64,000 nucleotides of DNA from Pyrococcus horikoshii OT3 (GTDB lineage Archaea; Methanobacteriota_B; Thermococci; Thermococcales; Thermococcaceae), in assembly GCF_000011105.1 (NCBI RefSeq), contig NC_000961.1, positions 978,662 through 1,042,661 on the forward strand, read 5' to 3'. The translations under genes were made by a program, and so were the position numbers. The notes under the pieces were generated by a model that worked only from the letters and a program-made list of their open reading frames with translations, was not told where the DNA came from and made no database searches. Positions 15,699 through 38,382 of the stretch are shown here, one piece after another (position 1 is the stretch's first letter; every line of letters begins with the position of its first letter).

Positions 15699-16124
15699 GT
15701 TCCAATAAGACTAAAATAGAATTGAAACTTCTGGAGTGCAAAGTTTGGAAAAGGCTTGAATGGTGTTCCAATAAGACTAAAATAGAATTGAAACAGGCTT
15801 TTATTGAGCGTTGGTTTGTTATTTTTAGTTCCAATAAGACTAAAATAGAATTGAAACCAGTTTAAGCTTAACCTCCCACCTGTGAACGTTGAGAGTTCCA
15901 ATAAGACTAAAATAGGATTGAAACTTCACGGCTGGTTGGAGGGTACTAGTCTATGATATGCGTTCCAATAAGACTAAAATAGAATTGAAACTGGAGCGAT
16001 GGCTCTCGCACTCGGTCTCTTGTTCAGCGTTCCAATAAGACTAAAATAGAATTGAAACCATAGCTAGGAATCTTGGCTTTCTCTGGAGAAGGAGGTTCCA
16101 ATAAGACTAAAAAAGAATTGAATT
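15699..16124 (+). CRISPR. CRISPR array, 7 repeats and 6 spacers
   Basis: Repeats of 30 bases start with GTTCCAATAAGAC and end with AGAATTGAAAC. They begin at 15699, 15765, 15828, 15895, 15962, 16029 and 16095. Spacers are 33-37 bases. The fourth repeat has an A-to-G change at 15916. The seventh has a T-to-A change at 16113 and a damaged end with GAATTG duplicated, so it marks the leader-distal end. The leader is therefore on the low-coordinate side. No cas gene lies within the window; processing would need Cas6 encoded elsewhere. The repeat type is the one shared across Pyrococcus and Thermococcus. Confidence 0.97.
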
Positions 16125-28814: not shown

Positions 28815-28873
28815 GCCCCTCCCCTCTCACACCCCCGTGATCGGTGATCGGGGGGCGGTCGGGGAGGGGACAC
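28815..28873 (+). ncRNA. H/ACA box pseudouridylation guide RNA (single hairpin)
   Basis: A GC-rich island in AT-rich DNA folds into an archaeal H/ACA hairpin. The basal stem is CCCCTCCCC (28816-28824) with GGGGAGGGG (28861-28869), 9 perfect pairs. The internal pocket is TCTCACA (28825-28831) and CGGTC (28856-28860). The upper stem is CCCCC (28832-28836) with GGGGG (28851-28855), capped by GTGATCGGTGATCG, which looks like the K-loop that binds L7Ae. ACA (28870-28872) directly follows the basal stem and lies 14 bases from the pocket, as the family requires. The guide arms are complementary to GACCG-UC-GUGAGA, a highly conserved 23S rRNA segment just before the peptidyl-transferase-loop base A2602 (E. 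coli numbering). The product would convert that U to pseudouridine with Cbf5, Nop10, Gar1 and L7Ae. Confidence 0.85.
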
Positions 28874-31800
28874 CCTTTATTATTGCCATTATCTTCTTAT
28901 GAAGCTCTTTTATTAACTCCCTCCTATCCTCCATCAGTACAACATCACTAGCCCCTATTACTTCCAAGTTAAAGGCGAAGGGACTTGGATACGGATGCTC
29001 TCTAACGGTAACTTTGATCTTTCCCTCCTTTATCCATTTAAGGAAAAGCTCAGCATTCTCTATATCCATTTTATCCTCCATAATCTCCCTATAAACTTCC
29101 TTTAGCAATGGAAAGTTGGGATGATTCTTCTTAAGGAAGTTCAAAAGTGTCTGTGCATTCATCTGTTGTCTGCTGAGGCTTTTTTCTCTTCCCATGTACC
29201 TCCTTAAAATTAAAAGTCCTCTATTAGCTACATGCCTAAACCTTCTCTTAAGTAGCTCGGTGTTGTCGAGGGCCCTCTTAAGGATCTCTCTTAAATTCTC
29301 AACGTAAAATAGCTCAAGTATCTCCCCTTCCTTTAGCTCTTTGTCAACTGGAACCTTTAGCATGAAACCATTATCCGTTATTGCAATCCCCACGTTGCAT
29401 TTCTTCTTTTTACTTATCATGTATGCAAAAGCCCTACTCAGGGCATCGTTGGCCCTTCTCCCTATTAGGGTATGGAAGAAGTACTTAGTAACGTTTCCTT
29501 CCCTAACTATTTCAACGAGAACCGTTTCATCATCTGGTATTATAGAATACTTTGCCTGCTCCCTAAAATATGAGATTATAGCTTTAGCAGTTACATTATC
29601 TATTCCGTACTTTTTCATAAGCAAGGATTCAGCCCTTTTACTGGTTAAAAGCTTCTTGACTTCTCCCCTGAATCTCTGGATGTCAATGGCTAAATCGAAA
29701 CTTAAGGGTAACATCTCGGAAAACCATGAGGGTATTGTGGGCTTAGCTCCTTCCCTGGGAATTACATAGATCTTGTTTCCCCTGCTCTTAACGAATTCAT
29801 AAGTCCTACCAGCTAAAACGAAGATATCTCCGGGCATTAACCTTTCAGCAAATTCTTCCTCAACGGTTCCGATGTACTTTTTATCAAGGGTAAAGACGTC
29901 TATCTTGGCCTCGTCTGGTATAGTTCCAGTATTCATATAATATATCGCCCTTGTCATCTTTCCTCTTCTTCCAAACTTTCCATTCTCAAGCCATATCTTA
30001 GCGTAAACCCTTTTCTCCTCTAAACCTGAATACTCGCCGGCCAGATACTTAAGAACGTTCATGAAATCACTAAAGGGAAGTTCATGATAGGGATAGGCCC
30101 TTCTCACGACCCTATAAGCTTCCTCGATCTCCCATACTTTTTCAAGGGCCATTCCCAGGATATGCTGAACTAAAACGTCGAGAGGGTTCTTAGGTATTTT
30201 TATCCTATCCAGCTTCCTATTCCTGGCGTTGTGAGCTAAAACTGTTACCTCAACTAGATCATCTCTATCTAAGGCTAGAATTATTCCCCTACTAACTTCA
30301 TGAAGTCTGTGCCCAGCCCTTCCTATTCTTTGAAGGGCCCTGTTTACACTCTTTGGGGAACCGACGAGGACTACCAAGTCTATTGTACCGATGTCTATAC
30401 CCAACTCCAAGCTTGTTGAGCTATTTTTCGAGACAAACCCATTAACAACATAATTTCCAGTTTCAGAGTTTATAATACCGTAGGCTACGTCAAGATAAAC
30501 CGGTTCAATGGAGGTTATCCTGTCAAAGAATATATCCCCCTCGGATAACTCCTTCAAATAGGAGAGCTCCTTAAGAACGTCGTTAAGTCCTCTTTCCCTC
30601 GCCACCTTTTCATAAAGCTTGATAATGGCTTTCAACTCACTCCTTCTAATTTCTCTCCGGTTATAGGTTCCTGGATACCCGAGTTTCTCTTCTATCTCTT
30701 TTAAGCGCTTTTCAAGATTTGGGATAACATCTTCCCACTCTTTATAATAATTTGACCTCCAGGAATTGACTATCTTGAGGAATTTTTCTCCTTCGATGAT
30801 TGAGACTTCAAAAGTTTGCTCATTTATAGATGAGAGTATACCGAGCTGAAGGAGGATATCTCTTATACCCTCTGCAAATTTTCTATTGAACGCAAAAAAT
30901 CCGAGTGAATGAATTCTTCCGTTCTCTATCTTGATAAAACCATTTCCATCGAAATAGCCGGCCAAAAATTCTTCTTTATGCTTCTCTGGTAGTATGTAGA
31001 TGATTGGAGGTACTTCAAGCTTTGGCCTAGCGAGGTTTTTAAAGACAAATGAGAGAAGGCTAGATGGAATTTCAAGTATATAGGTACCCTTATCTTGTGC
31101 TTTTATCCTTCCTTTAACTCTAAACTCTCTTTTACATAGGTCTTCGTATCTCTCGAGAATTTTCTTATCCTGGCTGTAGAATATTAGGGTATTTCTATTA
31201 AGTGAACCACTTGCCATCCAGAAGCCAAGCAATCTTGCAATGCCGGGTGTAAGCTCAGGTGGAAGTGAGTACTTACCCCTCCTAGAGGTTATCCTTTCAA
31301 TGTCATCTCGGGATATCTCAATGCTAACATCATTTAGAATAACCCGTAGCCTTCCCCAACGAAATGGAGAAAGACCGTTTAGTTGTTTTACGAGATAAGA
31401 GGAATTAAATCCCCTCTCTTTTGCATAATTCTTTATCGATCCAAATTTTTCTTTTATCGAGACCTTTAGTTTTTTTAAAAATTCCTTATTAAGCCAAAGA
31501 TAAGTGCTCTCTGGCAAAAAGTCTAGAATTAAAACTTTTGAATTGGGACTTGGAAGTTTCCTTATGATTCCCACGTAATCTCCTTCTTTAAGCCTCCACG
31601 CCTCCACCCATCTTAGCTCTCCATTTTTATCAATAGTGAGGAATCTGTGCTCTCTAGTACATTTAACTTCAAATCCTAGCTGTGTTCTTATTTTAACCCC
31701 ATATTCCTGGTACTTAACTTGATGTAATTCCTGGAATTTAACGAATCTACTCTTAAAACCATTGATTCCAACTATCATCCCTGAGTTTAAATGTCGAATC

Positions 31801-32885
31801 TCAACCGGGCCTTTTTCTGTTAGAACTTTTGAATCCCCAGAAACACATACAACGGCTCTTAATTCACCTCTTTTTAGTTTTTCCTCAACATCCAAGCGAA
31901 CTTCCCTCGATAAGGATGAATGATGAGTTTCTATTAATCCTTTAAACTCTGGAAACCTTTTCTTCAAATTGAAAGCCACCCTCTCTGCTCCACTTCTCGT
32001 GTTAGTGAATATCAAGGTAGTCTTATGCTTCCTTATAAGTTCTGCTAAGCGATTATAAAGAGCATTACTTAAGGTTTCAGCATCAGTGTATATTAAATCC
32101 TCAACGACGCTTTCAACCTTTATCTCCGTCTGCTTGGCGAAGGAGACATCAACTATAAGCCCTGACCTTGGTGTTCCATCGTCATTAAAACCGAACACAA
32201 ACTTGGCCACTTCTTCAAGTGGATGAATTGTGGCACTAAGTCCAATTCTTACAAAGTCCCTACCGACTAGCTCCCTTAACCTCTCGAGAGTTAACGCTAA
32301 GTGCGATCCTCTCTTATTTTCAGCTAGGGCATGAACCTCGTCAACTATTACCCACCTTACATCCCTTAATCTTTCCCTAAATTTGGGTGCATTTAGAGCT
32401 ATAGCCAGGCTTTCAGGGGTTGTTATTAATATATGGGGTGGTTTTTTCACCATCTTACTTTTCTCATAGCTTGAAGTGTCGCTGGTTCTTACAGCTATCC
32501 TAATTTCAGGGATCTCCTCCCCAAGTTCCTGGGCTAGTTCTTTAATCTCTCTGAGAGGCTCTTCAAGGTTCCTTCTTATGTCATTATTAAGGGCCCTTAA
32601 AGGAGAAATATAAACGCAGTATATTTTATCTTCAAGCTTACCCTTTCTTCCGAGTGATATAAGCTCGCTTATTATGGCCAAAAATGCTGAAAGGGTTTTG
32701 CCGGAACCTGTGGGGGAAGATATAAGGACGTTCTCCCCCTTATGAATTTCAACTATTGCATACCTCTGTGGGGGTGTGAACGAGTTGAACTTTCTTTTGA
32801 ACCATTCCCTAACCAAGGGGTCTAGAATGGAGTATATCTCATCATCTGTGTATTTCCTTTTAGCCCATCTTACGTTACCCATCAC
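28827..32885 (-). CDS. lhr: Lhr-type large superfamily 2 helicase interrupted by an intein
   Basis: DNA helicase of the Lhr family. The precursor has 1352 residues, 877 after intein removal. Motifs: SSPTGSGKT (Walker A, about residue 54-62), IVDEVHALAENKRG (motif II), GLSATIHP (motif III), LIFTNTRSGAER (motif IV), then after the intein SSTSLELGIDIG (motif V) and QRIGRAGHR (motif VI). The winged-helix and Lhr core C-terminal regions follow. The intein sits before motif V. The last ~15 codons lie antisense to the H/ACA RNA and give an odd Pro-rich tail (PSPTAPRSPITGV), which may be an artefact of sequence serving two purposes. The start ATG is near 32885; no operon partner. Confidence 0.95.
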   Translation of the reverse strand: MMGNVRWAKRKYTDDEIYSILDPLVREWFKRKFNSFTPPQRYAIVEIHKGENVLISSPTGSGKTLSAFLAIISELISLGRKGKLEDKIYCVYISPLRALNNDIRRNLEEPLREIKELAQELGEEIPEIRIAVRTSDTSSYEKSKMVKKPPHILITTPESLAIALNAPKFRERLRDVRWVIVDEVHALAENKRGSHLALTLERLRELVGRDFVRIGLSATIHPLEEVAKFVFGFNDDGTPRSGLIVDVSFAKQTEIKVESVVEDLIYTDAETLSNALYNRLAELIRKHKTTLIFTNTRSGAERVAFNLKKRFPEFKGLIETHHSSLSREVRLDVEEKLKRGELRAVVCVSGDSKVLTEKGPVEIRHLNSGMIVGINGFKSRFVKFQELHQVKYQEYGVKIRTQLGFEVKCTREHRFLTIDKNGELRWVEAWRLKEGDYVGIIRKLPSPNSKVLILDFLPESTYLWLNKEFLKKLKVSIKEKFGSIKNYAKERGFNSSYLVKQLNGLSPFRWGRLRVILNDVSIEISRDDIERITSRRGKYSLPPELTPGIARLLGFWMASGSLNRNTLIFYSQDKKILERYEDLCKREFRVKGRIKAQDKGTYILEIPSSLLSFVFKNLARPKLEVPPIIYILPEKHKEEFLAGYFDGNGFIKIENGRIHSLGFFAFNRKFAEGIRDILLQLGILSSINEQTFEVSIIEGEKFLKIVNSWRSNYYKEWEDVIPNLEKRLKEIEEKLGYPGTYNRREIRRSELKAIIKLYEKVARERGLNDVLKELSYLKELSEGDIFFDRITSIEPVYLDVAYGIINSETGNYVVNGFVSKNSSTSLELGIDIGTIDLVVLVGSPKSVNRALQRIGRAGHRLHEVSRGIILALDRDDLVEVTVLAHNARNRKLDRIKIPKNPLDVLVQHILGMALEKVWEIEEAYRVVRRAYPYHELPFSDFMNVLKYLAGEYSGLEEKRVYAKIWLENGKFGRRGKMTRAIYYMNTGTIPDEAKIDVFTLDKKYIGTVEEEFAERLMPGDIFVLAGRTYEFVKSRGNKIYVIPREGAKPTIPSWFSEMLPLSFDLAIDIQRFRGEVKKLLTSKRAESLLMKKYGIDNVTAKAIISYFREQAKYSIIPDDETVLVEIVREGNVTKYFFHTLIGRRANDALSRAFAYMISKKKKCNVGIAITDNGFMLKVPVDKELKEGEILELFYVENLREILKRALDNTELLKRRFRHVANRGLLILRRYMGREKSLSRQQMNAQTLLNFLKKNHPNFPLLKEVYREIMEDKMDIENAELFLKWIKEGKIKVTVREHPYPSPFAFNLEVIGASDVVLMEDRRELIKELHKKIMAIIKGVPSPTAPRSPITGV
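30423..31847 (-). other. Intein in Lhr, with LAGLIDADG endonuclease and non-canonical Lys-Asn end
   Basis: 475 codons, precursor residues 347-821. The N-terminal splice block is CVSGDSKVLTEKGPVEI, followed by TREHRFLT (block B). The endonuclease motifs are LLGFWMASGSLN and FLAGYFDGNGF. The C-terminal end reads VVNGFVSKN followed by Ser (the +1 residue of the extein, SSTSLELG). The penultimate residue is Lys (AAA), where most inteins have His. Length agrees with the P. horikoshii LHR intein from memory. Confidence 0.92.
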
Positions 32886-33009: not shown

Positions 33010-33363
33010 TTAAGTGAACCATTTTATCTTATCTCCAAATTCGGGTTTAATTGACTCTTTAAGCCCCCTAGGCCCTTCAATTATGTACCTTGCACGAGCT
33101 TTAGGGATGTAAATCCTCCATGGTTTAAGTGTTGTAACATCGACAACCCTAAAATTGGAATCCAGGAATATCACATCTATGCTTTCCAGCATGAAAAAGC
33201 CATGGATTGAGGCATTAATCCTTGTTTCGAGGGGAAGGATAAAGACTAAGGCATACCTAGGCTTTTTAAACATCAAACCTAGGGCCCTTTTAATGAAGCT
33301 ATCAGCGATCCTTACCTCCCCTTCCCAGCTCAAATTCTTGCTTTCATTGACTATCATTTTCAA
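33010..33363 (-). CDS. DUF192 family protein
   Basis: A 117-residue single-domain protein with the DUF192 hallmarks: the RALGLMF-type segment (residues 26-32), FILPLETRINASIHGFFMLESIDVIFLD (about 42-69) and the hydrophobic ARYIIEGP strand. The family is of unknown function and is often found outside the cytoplasm in bacteria, but here there is no signal peptide. The TTG start overlaps the TGA of the upstream radical SAM gene by 4 bases; an ATG two codons downstream is an alternative. Confidence 0.85.
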   Translation of the reverse strand: MKMIVNESKNLSWEGEVRIADSFIKRALGLMFKKPRYALVFILPLETRINASIHGFFMLESIDVIFLDSNFRVVDVTTLKPWRIYIPKARARYIIEGPRGLKESIKPEFGDKIKWFT

Positions 33364-34373
33364 CCCACAAGGGCATTTTTAAATCCGAGCTTTTTGGTAA
33401 TTTTTTCGGCTTCCCTCATTTCATCTAGCGTTAAAGTCCTCGCTATCTCATCATATTCAATAGCTTTGTACTCGGGTCGGTACTGAAACATTACATTAAC
33501 TCTAATTTCCCTTCCAAGGTTTTCTGCTATCCATCTTAATATGGGCTTCGTGCAACAATCTAAATGATTTGGCATTACCAAATGCCTTATTAAGAATTCA
33601 GCTCTAAAATGCTCCTTAGCTAGAAGGAAATTCCTTGTTACTACTTCCCAATACCTTGGAACCTTAGAGTACTTCATTGCGCACCTGTCATTCCCATATT
33701 TGAAGTCTCCCAGGTATATGTCGACCACTCCATCAAGCAACTTCATAGCTTCTTCGCTCATATACATATTAGAGTTCCAAACAATTGGGATGGGAACCCT
33801 GACATATCTAAGGGTTTCAAGTATGAAAGGAAGGTTCGGTGTAGGTTCCCCTCCCACGAAGTTAACATTCCTAGCTCCCAACTGAAAGGCCTTCTCTATT
33901 TTAATTGCCATATACTCTGGAAGATATTCAACTCCAATTCTAAACTGGCTTATATCCCAATTTTGGCAGAAAACACAACGAAAGTTGCAACCAGAGAAGA
34001 AAACCGTATAGGATGGAACCAGCTCCGGTTCCTCACCATAGTGAAGAAAATCACTAGCAACTAGGCTCTCCTTAACCCTGCAGTACCCTGGGCTCTTCTT
34101 TCTGTTTACCCTACATTTTATCTCACAGAGTGTGCATCTCTCAAGGATCTTATCTGCTATCTTAGCCTTTAAATCAAGGAGATTCCTTTCAGGATTTTCA
34201 GTTAGATCGTTTTCCTTGAGCTTGTCGAGACCTTCATCATGAATCACCCATAGTCCATCTAAATCCTCATCTCCCCTAAATCTTACCTTAACATTCCGGG
34301 CTAGCATGAAATTTGGCTCTTCCTCTCTCTTAAGTATTGCGAAATACTTAGGTAGGGCCTCCTCAGCTCCCAT
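33360..34373 (-). CDS. Radical SAM protein, PflX/COG1313-like
   Basis: The radical SAM cluster motif is CNFRCVFCQNWD (about residues 127-138, CxxxCxxC). An additional N-terminal cysteine cluster CTLCEIKCRVNRKKSPGYC (about 78-96) resembles the accessory site of AmmeMemoRadiSam- and PflX-type proteins. VNFVGGEPTPNLPFIL is the SAM-binding GGEP motif. COG1313 enzymes are described as putative pyruvate-formate-lyase activating homologues but their target is unknown. It is transcribed divergently from the guide RNA and phosphodiesterase gene. Confidence 0.85.
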   Translation of the reverse strand: MGAEEALPKYFAILKREEEPNFMLARNVKVRFRGDEDLDGLWVIHDEGLDKLKENDLTENPERNLLDLKAKIADKILERCTLCEIKCRVNRKKSPGYCRVKESLVASDFLHYGEEPELVPSYTVFFSGCNFRCVFCQNWDISQFRIGVEYLPEYMAIKIEKAFQLGARNVNFVGGEPTPNLPFILETLRYVRVPIPIVWNSNMYMSEEAMKLLDGVVDIYLGDFKYGNDRCAMKYSKVPRYWEVVTRNFLLAKEHFRAEFLIRHLVMPNHLDCCTKPILRWIAENLGREIRVNVMFQYRPEYKAIEYDEIARTLTLDEMREAEKITKKLGFKNALVG

Positions 34374-34408
34374 CGATTAAATTTATGAAATATCGGTTAA
34401 AATCATTA

Positions 34409-34467
34409 GCGACTAATGATGAACTACTCCCGGCTGAGGGGTGATGAACCACCTACCGGCTGAGGTG
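34409..34467 (+). ncRNA. C/D box 2'-O-methylation guide RNA
   Basis: The boxes are in standard order: C (ATGATGA, 34416-34422), D' (CTGA, 34434-34437), C' (GTGATGA, 34441-34447) and D (CTGA, 34460-34463). The guides between boxes are ACTACTCCCGG (11 nt) and ACCACCTACCGG (12 nt), the usual archaeal length. By the D+5 rule the predicted targets are the G of CCGG-G-AGUAGU and the U of CCGG-U-AGGUGGU; I have not placed them in an rRNA or tRNA. A TATA-like TTAAATTTATG (34378-34388) starts transcription near 34409. The D box runs straight into the GGTGA ribosome binding site of the next gene, so the RNA may be cut from, or compete with, that mRNA. Confidence 0.8.
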
Positions 34468-34472
34468 AAAGC

Positions 34473-35585
34473 ATGAAGAAGCTTGCCTTGATTAGTTTAG
34501 ACGGTAATGGAATTTACAATCTTAAGTATATGCCCTTCCTAAGTGAGCTTGCCGAGAAAGGGGATATATTTACCGTGGACTCTATATTTCCAACTTTAAC
34601 GGATCTAGTCCACACAACCGTAATGACGGGCGTCGAGCCTCGCCATCATTGGGTCGTTGAGAACGGCTATTACGATAGATTAAGCGGTGTTAGGGTTAAA
34701 TTTTATGAATATGATGTTGCATTCAATCCTCACAAGGTCATAAAAGCTCCGCTAATTCAAGACATACTTCGTCAGAGGGGAGTTAGGATAGCAAGCGTTT
34801 CCGGCTACACAATGCCTCCTTTTAGTAATGTTGACGTTAGAATATTCCCACCATTTTTCTCCAGTGATGAGCTTTACAGGAGGCACGGAAGGGATTGGAA
34901 GAAGGATGTCTGGGTTTTAAATTCGGCACTATACCTATATGAAGAGTGTAAGCCGGATCTATTGCTAGTGCATTTCGCATCCATAGATGGGATGCAACAT
35001 GATCATGGACCTGAAAGCAGAGAGGCCCTAAAAGCTGTAGAAACAGTTGATTCAGCAATAAGAGCTCTTTGGGAGAGGCTTAAAGATGAGTATGCCTTTA
35101 TAATATTTGCGGATCATGGACAGGAAGAAGTCCACACTTGGGTGAACCTTAGAGAGTACTTAAGGAATAAGGGAATAGAGACACTTAGAGTCTCCTCCGG
35201 AGGGGGTGTACACGTATACTTGAAAGACCCCAGGGAAAGGGAAGATGCTTATGAAGTTCTCAGGAGAGCCCCGGGAGTTAAAGCGGTTTTCTTAAGGGAA
35301 GATCTTCCCTATCTAAATGCCCCCGTTAGTGGGGATTTGATAGTTTCAGCCAAAGAGGGTTTTTGGTTCTGCCATCATAGAGAGTGCAAAGGGATTAAAG
35401 GGAAAAGCTACTGGGTTAGAGGGATGCACGGTTCTCTGAATGAAAGGGTTGTTAAAGTTCCTTTGGTATTGTGGAATCTGGAGGCTAAGAAGGAAGAGGC
35501 AACACTATATGATATTGCTCCAACTATATTGAAATTCTTTGGGGTTGAAAAAAGGGTTGAAATGATTGGGAAGTCCCTAATCTAA
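34473..35585 (+). CDS. Type I phosphodiesterase / nucleotide pyrophosphatase family protein
   Basis: Alkaline-phosphatase-superfamily hydrolase of 370 residues. Metal-site motifs: SLDGNG (about 8-13), a nucleophile region FPTLTDLVHTTVMTG (threonine), HFASIDGMQHDHGP (about 168-181), IIFADHGQEE (about 205-214) and VRGMHGSLNE (about 318-327). The substrate may be a nucleotide, phospholipid or phosphodiester; it cannot be decided. The start ATG is preceded by GAGGTGA, which lies at the end of the C/D guide RNA. The 3' end overlaps the convergent FUN14 gene by four bases. Confidence 0.88.
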   Translation: MKKLALISLDGNGIYNLKYMPFLSELAEKGDIFTVDSIFPTLTDLVHTTVMTGVEPRHHWVVENGYYDRLSGVRVKFYEYDVAFNPHKVIKAPLIQDILRQRGVRIASVSGYTMPPFSNVDVRIFPPFFSSDELYRRHGRDWKKDVWVLNSALYLYEECKPDLLLVHFASIDGMQHDHGPESREALKAVETVDSAIRALWERLKDEYAFIIFADHGQEEVHTWVNLREYLRNKGIETLRVSSGGGVHVYLKDPREREDAYEVLRRAPGVKAVFLREDLPYLNAPVSGDLIVSAKEGFWFCHHRECKGIKGKSYWVRGMHGSLNERVVKVPLVLWNLEAKKEEATLYDIAPTILKFFGVEKRVEMIGKSLI

Positions 35586-35928: not shown

Positions 35929-37659
35929 TCACTCAACACCTTTCCTTACCTTGACAGCTCTTCCATACTGAAAGACTATCATCTCCCTTCCCGAAAGTAA
36001 TGCCTGTCCAGTTGCTAGCAGCTCATCGTTTTCATTTACAACCAAGACCTCATCGTAAGGTCTAATTCCCGGATCTGCAAAAATGACGAATTTCGCAAAT
36101 ACATCCTTACCTTTCCTTGCAAAGGGCTCAGCTTCCTTATTTACCACGACTCTCATCCTGGGATAAGGTAGAACCCTGTGAAGCCTTTTTGCACCTTCTA
36201 TTCCTAAGGTTAGCAATCCATCATCTGCTCTAACTGTCGCTAACCTCTTACCGTTAACTTTAACTTGTCTGGGCATCCCCGTCTTTGAAAGTTCGACTTT
36301 AGCATCATCAAAAGCTCTCGAGGCACCCTCTCCGAACTGATATTCAGCTATCGCCATTACATATTTTATAGCATCTTCCTTTGTAGGTTTTTCAATTTTG
36401 AAATCATCTTCAGCTTCACTTTGGGCAAATGGATATGTTAGGCTAAGATACCTTGACACCCTCCCAAATATCGGATGCTCAACTAGTTCCCCAAACCTTT
36501 CATTGATGCTTTTGGCCCTCTCTTTAGCCCTCCTCACTACGGGCCACCTTAAGCTTTCGTTGCTAATCTTGAATAAAGCAGATTTTTTAGTTATCGGCTC
36601 GAATTCTTCGAGAAATGTATAATGCTCCAGAAGCCTCTTATATGCAGAGTATAGCTTTGGATGGGATCTAGCTCTTTCATCAACCAATCTCCACAGTTCT
36701 CCTTCTTTTATGGCCTGCTTTACTCGCTTAATCTCTTCCTTGATTACCCAGAGATTGTGAAGGGCCAGTAACCTTGTCCTCTCCTCCTTAGGCATTTCCC
36801 TTAACTCTTGGGGGGTGTATTTAGAGCAGACTGGACAGGAACATGGAAAGTAATCTAGTTCATCAAGTCTCTTTGTTCCCTCTGGAGTCATGTATCTGTC
36901 ATCTTTGGCATACAGTGCATAGCTAGCTGAATCAAAAAGATCAACACCCATTGCAACTGCAAGTGCGAAAACTATAGGGTGCCCCGCTCCAAATAAGTGC
37001 ACGGGCCTGTCTGGTCTTAGTGCCATTTTTGAGGAGATGACTATGTCAACAACATCCCTAAATCTGTAAGATTCCAAAAGTGGAACAACGCCTCCTATTG
37101 GATGTATCTCGAAGTTCATGCTGCTTAATCTTCTCGCAGCGTATCTTCTTAGATCTGTATACGTCGATCCCTGGATGGTGGCATTCATGGGAATCTCCTT
37201 TATTTCTTCCGCTTCCCTGGCCCTTGACAGCGTAATCTCTAACTCTTTAACTGCCTGTTCCCTTGGAGCATCTGGAGGAGTTGGTATATCTAAAAATGTC
37301 CCTATATCGACTCCTATTCTATGTTGGAATTCTATTATCTCTCGATTGCTTACCTCAATGCTCCCATATTTCATGAGCTGAAATGACCCAGAATCCACCT
37401 CTATTATTCCGTTATAATCTAGCATTCTATGTATTCCCAACTCAAGAGCTTTTCTCCTGAGCTCTTCATCCTTGTAAATTATATAAGAATTTGTGATTAT
37501 TATCTCAAACCCCATCTTTTCTAGTTCCTTTGGCTCCACTACCATTTGCTTGGGGTTGACCACGGGCATTATCGCTGGGGTTTCAATTTTTTTCCCATTT
37601 ACTTCAAGTTTTCCTATCCTTCCGGCCCCATCCCTTGCTTTTATTTCAAATTTGAGCAT
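35929..37659 (-). CDS. tgtA: Archaeosine tRNA-guanine transglycosylase (ArcTGT)
   Basis: Exchanges guanine 15 of archaeal tRNAs for preQ0, the archaeosine precursor. In the 582-residue numbering the nucleophile is Asp95 (EVDSGSFQ). The zinc cysteines are CSCPVC near 279-284 with a histidine in LLALHNLW, and a C-terminal PUA domain (about 505-582) binds the tRNA acceptor end. The annotated protein starts at ATG 37677, but GGGGTGAT followed by AAA precedes the ATG at 37659 (576 residues), which I prefer. The longer start lies inside the D box of a possible C/D RNA. Confidence 0.95.
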   Translation of the reverse strand: MLKFEIKARDGAGRIGKLEVNGKKIETPAIMPVVNPKQMVVEPKELEKMGFEIIITNSYIIYKDEELRRKALELGIHRMLDYNGIIEVDSGSFQLMKYGSIEVSNREIIEFQHRIGVDIGTFLDIPTPPDAPREQAVKELEITLSRAREAEEIKEIPMNATIQGSTYTDLRRYAARRLSSMNFEIHPIGGVVPLLESYRFRDVVDIVISSKMALRPDRPVHLFGAGHPIVFALAVAMGVDLFDSASYALYAKDDRYMTPEGTKRLDELDYFPCSCPVCSKYTPQELREMPKEERTRLLALHNLWVIKEEIKRVKQAIKEGELWRLVDERARSHPKLYSAYKRLLEHYTFLEEFEPITKKSALFKISNESLRWPVVRRAKERAKSINERFGELVEHPIFGRVSRYLSLTYPFAQSEAEDDFKIEKPTKEDAIKYVMAIAEYQFGEGASRAFDDAKVELSKTGMPRQVKVNGKRLATVRADDGLLTLGIEGAKRLHRVLPYPRMRVVVNKEAEPFARKGKDVFAKFVIFADPGIRPYDEVLVVNENDELLATGQALLSGREMIVFQYGRAVKVRKGVE

Positions 37660-37670
37660 TTTATCACCCC

Positions 37671-37727
37671 GGCTCATTCGGGCTGGACTTCATCATCATT
37701 CAGCTTTTCCGGAGTCAAATCATCGCC
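37671..37727 (-). ncRNA. Possible C/D box RNA between adk and tgtA
   Basis: On the minus strand: C (GCGATGA, 37726-37720), a 16-nt segment TTTGACTCCGGAAAAG, D' (CTGA, 37703-37700), C' (ATGATGA, 37696-37690), a 12-nt segment AGTCCAGCCCGA, and ATGA (37677-37674) in place of the D box. A GGC/GCC pair encloses C and D, as in a K-turn stem. The weak points are the ATGA in place of CTGA and the long first guide. No separate promoter is visible, so it would be cut from the adk transcript. Confidence 0.4.
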
Positions 37728-38382
37728 TACTCCTAGTATTATAAATGTAATCCAGTAGAGGCCTTATCCTTTCCCAAACTTCATTAATCGATCCATGACC
37801 ATCTATCTTAACGTAAATTCCCTGCTTCTGGTAGAATTTTATTATCGGTTCCATATTCCTCATATATATGTCGTACCTCTTCTCCACTATCTCAGGCCTA
37901 TCGTCAGGCCTTTGAATTAGATCTCCTCCACAGATATCACACTTTCCTGGGATCTTTGGAGGGTTAAATTCAATGTGATATACTGCTCCACACTTGGAGC
38001 ATATCCTTCTTCCAGAAATTCTCCTCACGCTTTCTTCCTTAGTTATGAAGATATCTATGGCTACATCAATTTTAATACCATGGTCATAGAGGTAATTCTC
38101 AAGGGCTATTACCTGTTCTGGCGTTCTTGGATAACCATCCATAATGAAATTCTCCCTAACCCTTCTTAGCTTCGAAATTATCAACGTGTTAACTATCGTG
38201 TCAGGTATTAAGTCACCTCTTGATAAATACTTCTCCATTTCTAATCCAAGTGGCGTTCTTGAGCTTATTTCTGCTCTTATAATATCCCCGGAGGAAATAT
38301 ACGTCAAACCATATCTTTCAGTAATCCTCCTTGCTTGGGTTGACTTCCCACTGCCTGGAGGGCCAAAGATTAGGATATTCAT
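37720..38382 (-). CDS. adk: Adenylate kinase with zinc-binding LID
   Basis: Phosphate transfer between ATP and AMP. The P-loop is FGPPGSGKST (residues 6-15), the AMP site SSGDIIR, and DGYPRTPEQ. The LID carries CSKCGAVYH and CDICGGDLIQRPDD, a four-cysteine zinc site typical of the bacterial/euryarchaeal long form. 220 residues. GGTG seven bases before the ATG. Its TGA stop is the first base set of the possible C/D RNA's C box. Confidence 0.95.
   Translation of the reverse strand: MNILIFGPPGSGKSTQARRITERYGLTYISSGDIIRAEISSRTPLGLEMEKYLSRGDLIPDTIVNTLIISKLRRVRENFIMDGYPRTPEQVIALENYLYDHGIKIDVAIDIFITKEESVRRISGRRICSKCGAVYHIEFNPPKIPGKCDICGGDLIQRPDDRPEIVEKRYDIYMRNMEPIIKFYQKQGIYVKIDGHGSINEVWERIRPLLDYIYNTRSRR

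Follow-up and report, generated by a model that had tools for sequence, protein, structure and literature searches.

Can the same few bases close a guide RNA and open the translation of the gene behind it? In the window (the whole 64,000-nucleotide stretch of Pyrococcus horikoshii OT3 analysed here), a C/D guide RNA runs straight into the start of a phosphodiesterase gene, and if the same bases are both D box and ribosome-binding site, each transcript would choose between guide RNA and translation. Such sharing, if true, would link ribosome modification to the expression of an enzyme. Rfam already lists the RNA itself as the family sR10, and archaeal mRNA leaders are known to include guide RNAs, but a different guide RNA at the same gene in relatives makes this known kind of arrangement unusually testable. 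Our reading, to which we give a probability of roughly 0.55 as a whole, is that sR10 is a dual guide, that it shares a transcript with the gene, and that RNP assembly on that transcript competes with translation. The features used are listed below, with LSU numbering starting at genome position 192729.

34382 to 34387, forward strand: TATA-like TTTATG, a candidate promoter for sR10 and, from the layout, also for the phosphodiesterase mRNA (motif)
34412 to 34465, forward strand: sR10, C/D box guide RNA (Rfam RF01149)
34416 to 34422, forward strand: C box ATGATGA of sR10 (sequence)
34423 to 34433, forward strand: D' guide ACTACTCCCGG of sR10, target LSU 1403-1412, predicted Gm1407 (10 contiguous Watson-Crick pairs, guide positions 1-10)
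34434 to 34437, forward strand: D' box CTGA of sR10 (sequence)
34441 to 34447, forward strand: C' box GTGATGA of sR10 (sequence)
34448 to 34459, forward strand: D guide ACCACCTACCGG of sR10, target LSU 2342-2351, predicted Um2345 (10 contiguous Watson-Crick pairs, guide positions 2-11)
34460 to 34463, forward strand: D box CTGA of sR10, its last two bases being the first two of the Shine-Dalgarno sequence (sequence; Shine-Dalgarno match)
34462 to 34468, forward strand: Shine-Dalgarno (SD) sequence GAGGTGA, matching the 16S 3' end, GATCACCTCCT, perfectly over 7 nt (anti-SD match)
34473 to 35585, forward strand: type I phosphodiesterase / nucleotide pyrophosphatase gene, 370 aa (Pfam PF01663, 209 bits)
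33360 to 34373, reverse strand: divergent radical SAM gene (ORF, Pfam PF04055)

The guide RNA ahead of the phosphodiesterase gene matches RF01149 with 81.7 bits (E 1.3e-18; gathering score 45) over 34412-34465, and sR10 scores above the Rfam cut-off in 23 of 94 family genomes. Its C, D', C' and D boxes are perfect and in order, with guides of 11 and 12 nt between them. Chance resemblance to a C/D RNA was ruled out with controls: genome-wide, the strict C-D'-C' pattern matched 28 times (27 places) compared with 0 in a backward control, and dinucleotide shuffles of the window gave zero C/D elements at 0-1 mismatch. A C/D scan of both strands of the 64-kb window returned no further element at 0-2 box mismatches. 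A 24-nt match elsewhere in the genome (L002) was considered as a second C/D-leader copy and rejected, as it covers the SD and start region only.

Both guides pair with 23S rRNA over 10 contiguous bases, with the target base in register 5 nt from the box, so the predicted bases are G1407 (via D') and U2345 (via D), near E. coli 1263 and 2233 by pairwise alignment. The preliminary description had recognised a C/D guide RNA with four consensus boxes and guides of these lengths, which the Rfam match and a direct reading of the sequence bear out, coordinates included. It had also placed methylation at the fifth pairs, a G and a U, and proposed a search for the guide complements in stable RNAs with a floor of 9 bp; both targets lie in 23S rRNA in that register, at 10 bp each. 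Orphan guides are thereby ruled out. Shuffled guides matched as well in 332 and 528 of 20,000 trials (1.7% and 2.6%), and in a check for tRNA targets the two exact 10-mers turned up 3 and 4 times in the whole genome, sR10 itself included, leaving one and two unannotated places besides sR10 and 23S. Of the 54 guides in the strict set, 23 pair at this quality, which makes sR10 typical of its class. Small-RNA detection in Pyrococcus is cited for the C/D class (PMC7994747), and RiboMeth-seq of P. furiosus exists (PMC7758197), in an article whose text does not carry the site list.

Conservation points the same way as the pairing. Wherever the LSU was checked (26 family genomes, some with no detectable sR10), both target sequences are intact, and the guides are nearly constant across 25 loci despite differing downstream genes. 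By these matches, sR10 is a predicted dual methylation guide for 23S rRNA. One might instead suppose that the element is purely a cis-regulatory L7Ae kink-turn leader which merely resembles a guide RNA, a proposal made for some of the snoRNAs predicted in 5'-UTRs of T. kodakarensis (PMC4247193). However, a leader switch has no need of two conserved guides, and here both match 23S in register and are kept ahead of unrelated genes, so we consider this very improbable.

How tightly is this guide RNA joined to the gene? GGTGA follows the D box directly at 34464-34468, with the ATG at 34473. The distance from D box to ATG is 9 nt in all seven fused Pyrococcus genomes, each with the SD core GGTG directly after the D box, and this fused order of sR10, SD and gene is found in 7/8 genomes of the genus. 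Upstream, TTTATG (34382-34387) lies about 25-27 nt before the expected sR10 5' end, as a motif match rather than a mapped start, and a TTAA-TTTAT element is kept there in 6/8 Pyrococcus genomes (again by motif only). No TATA-like stretch occurs within sR10. Because no promoter fits the 9-nt gap and sR10 lacks such a stretch, the phosphodiesterase mRNA most likely starts at or before the sR10 5' end, judging from the layout, and we infer that guide RNA and gene share transcription. The earlier claims about this junction hold: a TATA 26 nt ahead of the expected 5' end agrees with the motif found, the proposed shared promoter agrees with a gap that leaves no space for a separate one, and the D box said to abut a GGTGA ribosome-binding site in fact overlaps it, the SD taking in its last two bases.

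On the other side, the radical SAM gene starts only 43 nt from the sR10 C box, so the two divergent promoters must interleave. The region between them (34374-34411) is a very short divergent promoter region in which AT-rich elements for both directions are interleaved.

In a C/D kink-turn, the GA bases of the D box form sheared G-A pairs. The GA common to D box and SD would be used in those pairs, so one RNA molecule cannot use it both ways at once. The mechanism we propose builds on this. The promoter just upstream of sR10 would be the only one able to serve the phosphodiesterase gene, making one transcript both guide precursor and mRNA. Assembly of L7Ae, Nop5 and fibrillarin on that transcript would form the C/D kink-turn, take the GA that otherwise starts the SD, and lead to the guide RNA being trimmed out; where no RNP assembles, the SD would stay free and the phosphodiesterase would be translated.

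As read from the sequence, the kink-turn is placed to occlude the SD, and the idea has precedents. L7Ae folds a kink-turn in an otherwise unstructured leader and occludes the SD (PMC6298567; also PMC5539422), and a reporter was expressed less when a C/D RNA overlapped it on the 5' side (Tripp 2017, reviewed in PMC7994747). With these precedents, it is a plausible conjecture that RNP assembly competes with translation. The mutual exclusion suggested in the preliminary description is not forced, however: if the transcript were cut right after the D box, the remaining GGUGAAAGCAUG would keep most of the SD and could still be translated. In P. horikoshii only a short stem closes the kink-turn (by eye, about 3 pairs: 34412-34466, 34413-34465 and 34414-34464), and in other Pyrococcus sequences it is weaker. 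Folding of the leader RNA gave a z of -2.0, which we set aside because such programs cannot model kink-turns.

A separate observation concerns the non-canonical kink-turn pair between C box position 5 and D box position 2, which covaries across the sR10 loci (L019-L043) and the sR7 set described below. In sR10 this pair is U-U in all Pyrococcus and C-C, A-G or A-A in Thermococcus; in sR7 it is U-U in 39 cases, C-C in 10 and C-U in 6.

Is a guide-RNA leader a general property of this gene? Orthologues are present in 88/94 family genomes, and the region upstream was scanned for C/D RNAs in 86 Thermococcaceae genomes, grouped here so that g1 is taken as Pyrococcus and g3 as Thermococcus sensu stricto (inferred labels). 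A C/D leader stands at the gene or its operon in 63 of the 86. All eight Pyrococcus genomes having the gene carry sR10 ahead of it, and 55 of the 78 other genomes (48 g3, 5 g5, 1 g6 and 1 g2) carry a different guide RNA, sR7, ahead of the gene or of the operon's first gene. The upstream scan found no C/D RNA in the remaining genomes, namely 2 of g2, 10 of g3 and all 11 of g4, where two of the ten g3 regions are shortened by contig ends and one of these, G051, does have sR7 by pattern search. Because g4 and about ten g3 genomes do without it, a guide-RNA leader is dispensable for the gene's expression.

Where a C/D RNA is present at the gene or operon, SD and start codon follow the D box by 9-21 nt in 61/63 genomes, the exceptions being G011 and G002, which have a TATA-like element in between. 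In 30/55 genomes sR7 stands within 50 nt of the phosphodiesterase gene and is its direct leader; in the other 25/55 it leads another small gene that comes before. The overlap of SD and D box is specific to Pyrococcus; in the sR7 leaders the SD begins 1-9 nt past the D box. The sR7 D guide is TGCACGTCAGG. Rfam calls sR7 (RF01310) in Pyrococcus, g3 and g2 examples, and the g5 and g6 forms, which fall below the RF01310 cut-off, are grouped as sR7 by their identical D guide. The D' guide varies: g3 has the TCCATCCC type, g5 and g6 share AGTTCGCTAG, and the one g2 genome with sR7 has yet another sequence. In our literature search, which covered main texts, no paper was found that names the sR10 or sR7 leader of the phosphodiesterase gene.

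Guides are also re-paired between RNAs: AGTTCGCTAG is joined to TGCACGTCAGG in g5/g6 (L099, L101, L102, L104), and in P. horikoshii it is joined to a different D guide, with a TGCAC guide joined to the TCCATCCC guide (cf. L065, L143). In one g3 locus (L152) and about a dozen others, the sR7 leader is followed immediately, ahead of the phosphodiesterase gene, by a two-gene cassette that encodes a 65-aa protein and a PemK/MazF-like protein (PF02452). Shorter sR7-gene intervals in other genomes look like remnants of this cassette.

This survey bears on the strongest alternative, compact packing with no regulation. On that account sR10 would be excised by RNP protection and trimming, the mRNA would be translated from the remaining SD, neither process would influence the other, and the guide would only have donated a promoter. 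Most archaeal C/D genes do overlap or abut other genes, and their maturation is independent of flanking sequence (PMC7994747). The leader's absence from g4 and some g3 genomes, and the genes of G011 and G002 with their own TATA-like element behind the guide RNA, also suit packing, and the linkage could have been inherited just because the gene had lost a promoter of its own. Against it stand the bases shared by D box and SD in Pyrococcus and the reduced reporter expression from 5' overlaps (PMC7994747), and regulation gains further from the fact that most of the family retains a C/D leader even though the guide has changed. Packing thus keeps a substantial minority share of our belief, and we hold competition between RNP assembly and translation to be slightly likelier in Pyrococcus. 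A bolder version of regulation makes the leader of the Thermococcaceae phosphodiesterase operon a maintained regulatory slot, in which a C/D RNA would sense free L7Ae or guide-RNP capacity and tie the enzyme to ribosome modification, with the guide interchangeable (sR7, then sR10 in Pyrococcus); this we think unlikely.

How did the guide come to change? By comparison of the genomes, one leader slot has changed occupant: most relatives have sR7 there and Pyrococcus has sR10. The Pyrococcus sR7 is found at another locus, ahead of a gene for phosphopantothenate synthetase. The g3 genomes carry sR10 ahead of a gene that encodes pterin-binding domains; the D box of this sR10 is followed immediately by the TATA-like TTTTAA, and in at least one of these genomes (L024) sR53 immediately precedes sR10. 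The genome G011, the first branch among Pyrococcus in the protein tree, has the sR53-sR10 pair, then a TATA-like element, then the phosphodiesterase gene, and its sR53-sR10 shares 88% identity with the g3 locus along 112 bases. The other Pyrococcus genomes have neither sR53 nor the TATA-like element there, and the D box abuts the SD.

Because sR7 occurs on both sides of the tree's midpoint root (a root used for drawing only), it is likely the older occupant. The simplest order runs from an sR7 leader, through sR53-sR10 with a separate promoter, to an sR10 leader, so the fusion seems to stem from the sR53-sR10 unit taking the place that sR7 holds in most relatives. The G011 arrangement is plausibly the intermediate, but could also be derived. 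We looked for the pterin-binding gene (behind sR10 in Thermococcus) in Pyrococcus and did not find its position. As further observations, sR53 and sR10 abut as a dicistronic guide-RNA pair in both G011 (L037) and Thermococcus (L024), and a third C/D RNA lies some 30 nt upstream of the pair in G011.

Separately from the mechanism, the change of occupant could be a coincidence, i.e., a rearrangement that put sR53-sR10 ahead of the gene after sR7 had left. Rearrangements did occur, as sR7 and sR10 are each present elsewhere in the other lineage, and C/D genes are often at gene boundaries. However, only about 3-4 of the 27 strict C/D RNAs in P. horikoshii are SD-fused leaders, and hitting a gene that already is a C/D leader gene has a chance well under 1% (roughly two thousand genes), a rough post hoc figure and a rough guide only, as the comparison was noticed after the fact. 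We consider coincidence doubtful, at about the level of a minor but live option. Either way, the pattern gives an actual example of a guide RNA being replaced by a different one ahead of a fixed gene, and genetically tractable relatives have the sR7 version, so the idea is directly testable.

The arrangement is found at other genes too. A second guide RNA in the window is the following:

37672 to 37730, reverse strand: sR38, C/D guide RNA, leader of tgtA, with ATG at 37659 (Rfam RF01121, 91.4 bits)

The SD lies 3 nt behind the D-like box of sR38, the sR38 D' guide matches 16S rRNA over 12 bases, and the layout with tgtA is kept in all eight Pyrococcus genomes having sR38. Elsewhere in P. horikoshii, by a strict pattern search (per-genome leader counts being partial), an HhH-GPD DNA repair gene has sR17 as its leader, and a FEN-1-like gene with XPG domains has a snoPyro_CD RNA. 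Guide-RNA leaders therefore recur, which fits the T. kodakarensis report of 11 potential 5'-UTR snoRNAs, some of them with a suggested cis-regulatory role (PMC4247193). We also observed that tgtA is the archaeosine tRNA-guanine transglycosylase gene and that the sR38 D box, ATGA, forms an upstream in-frame ATG. Other features of the window are an H/ACA RNA, Pab91 (28816-28872, forward strand), lying antisense to the 3'-terminal part of a large helicase-like ORF (28827-32885, reverse strand) with an apparent intein in its helicase domain, and a CRISPR array of seven DR6-type repeats (15699-16124, forward strand).

Compared with known systems, the RNA at 34412-34465 is a member of sR10 (RF01149), a Pyrococcus C/D box sRNA family, and is no different from it in boxes or guides; what is added here is the gene context, the SD overlap and the change of occupant. 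The 5'-UTR snoRNAs of T. kodakarensis (PMC4247193) are likewise guide RNAs in mRNA leaders, released by processing and with a cis role suggested, and the main text of that study names neither sR7, sR10 nor the phosphodiesterase gene; here, SD and D box share bases and the leader's occupant differs between genera. The L7Ae autoregulatory leader (PMC5539422, PMC6298567) also places an L7Ae-dependent kink-turn across or beside the SD, but as a stem-loop ahead of the L7Ae gene with no guide RNA, whereas the kink-turn here closes a full dual-guide C/D RNA. Finally, the rearrangement of C/D guide modules in archaea (PMC4644070) likewise involves guides and sRNA genes that, judging by sequence, were recombined and mobilised, whereas in this case whole guide RNAs swap ahead of a fixed gene, with G011 as a possible intermediate.
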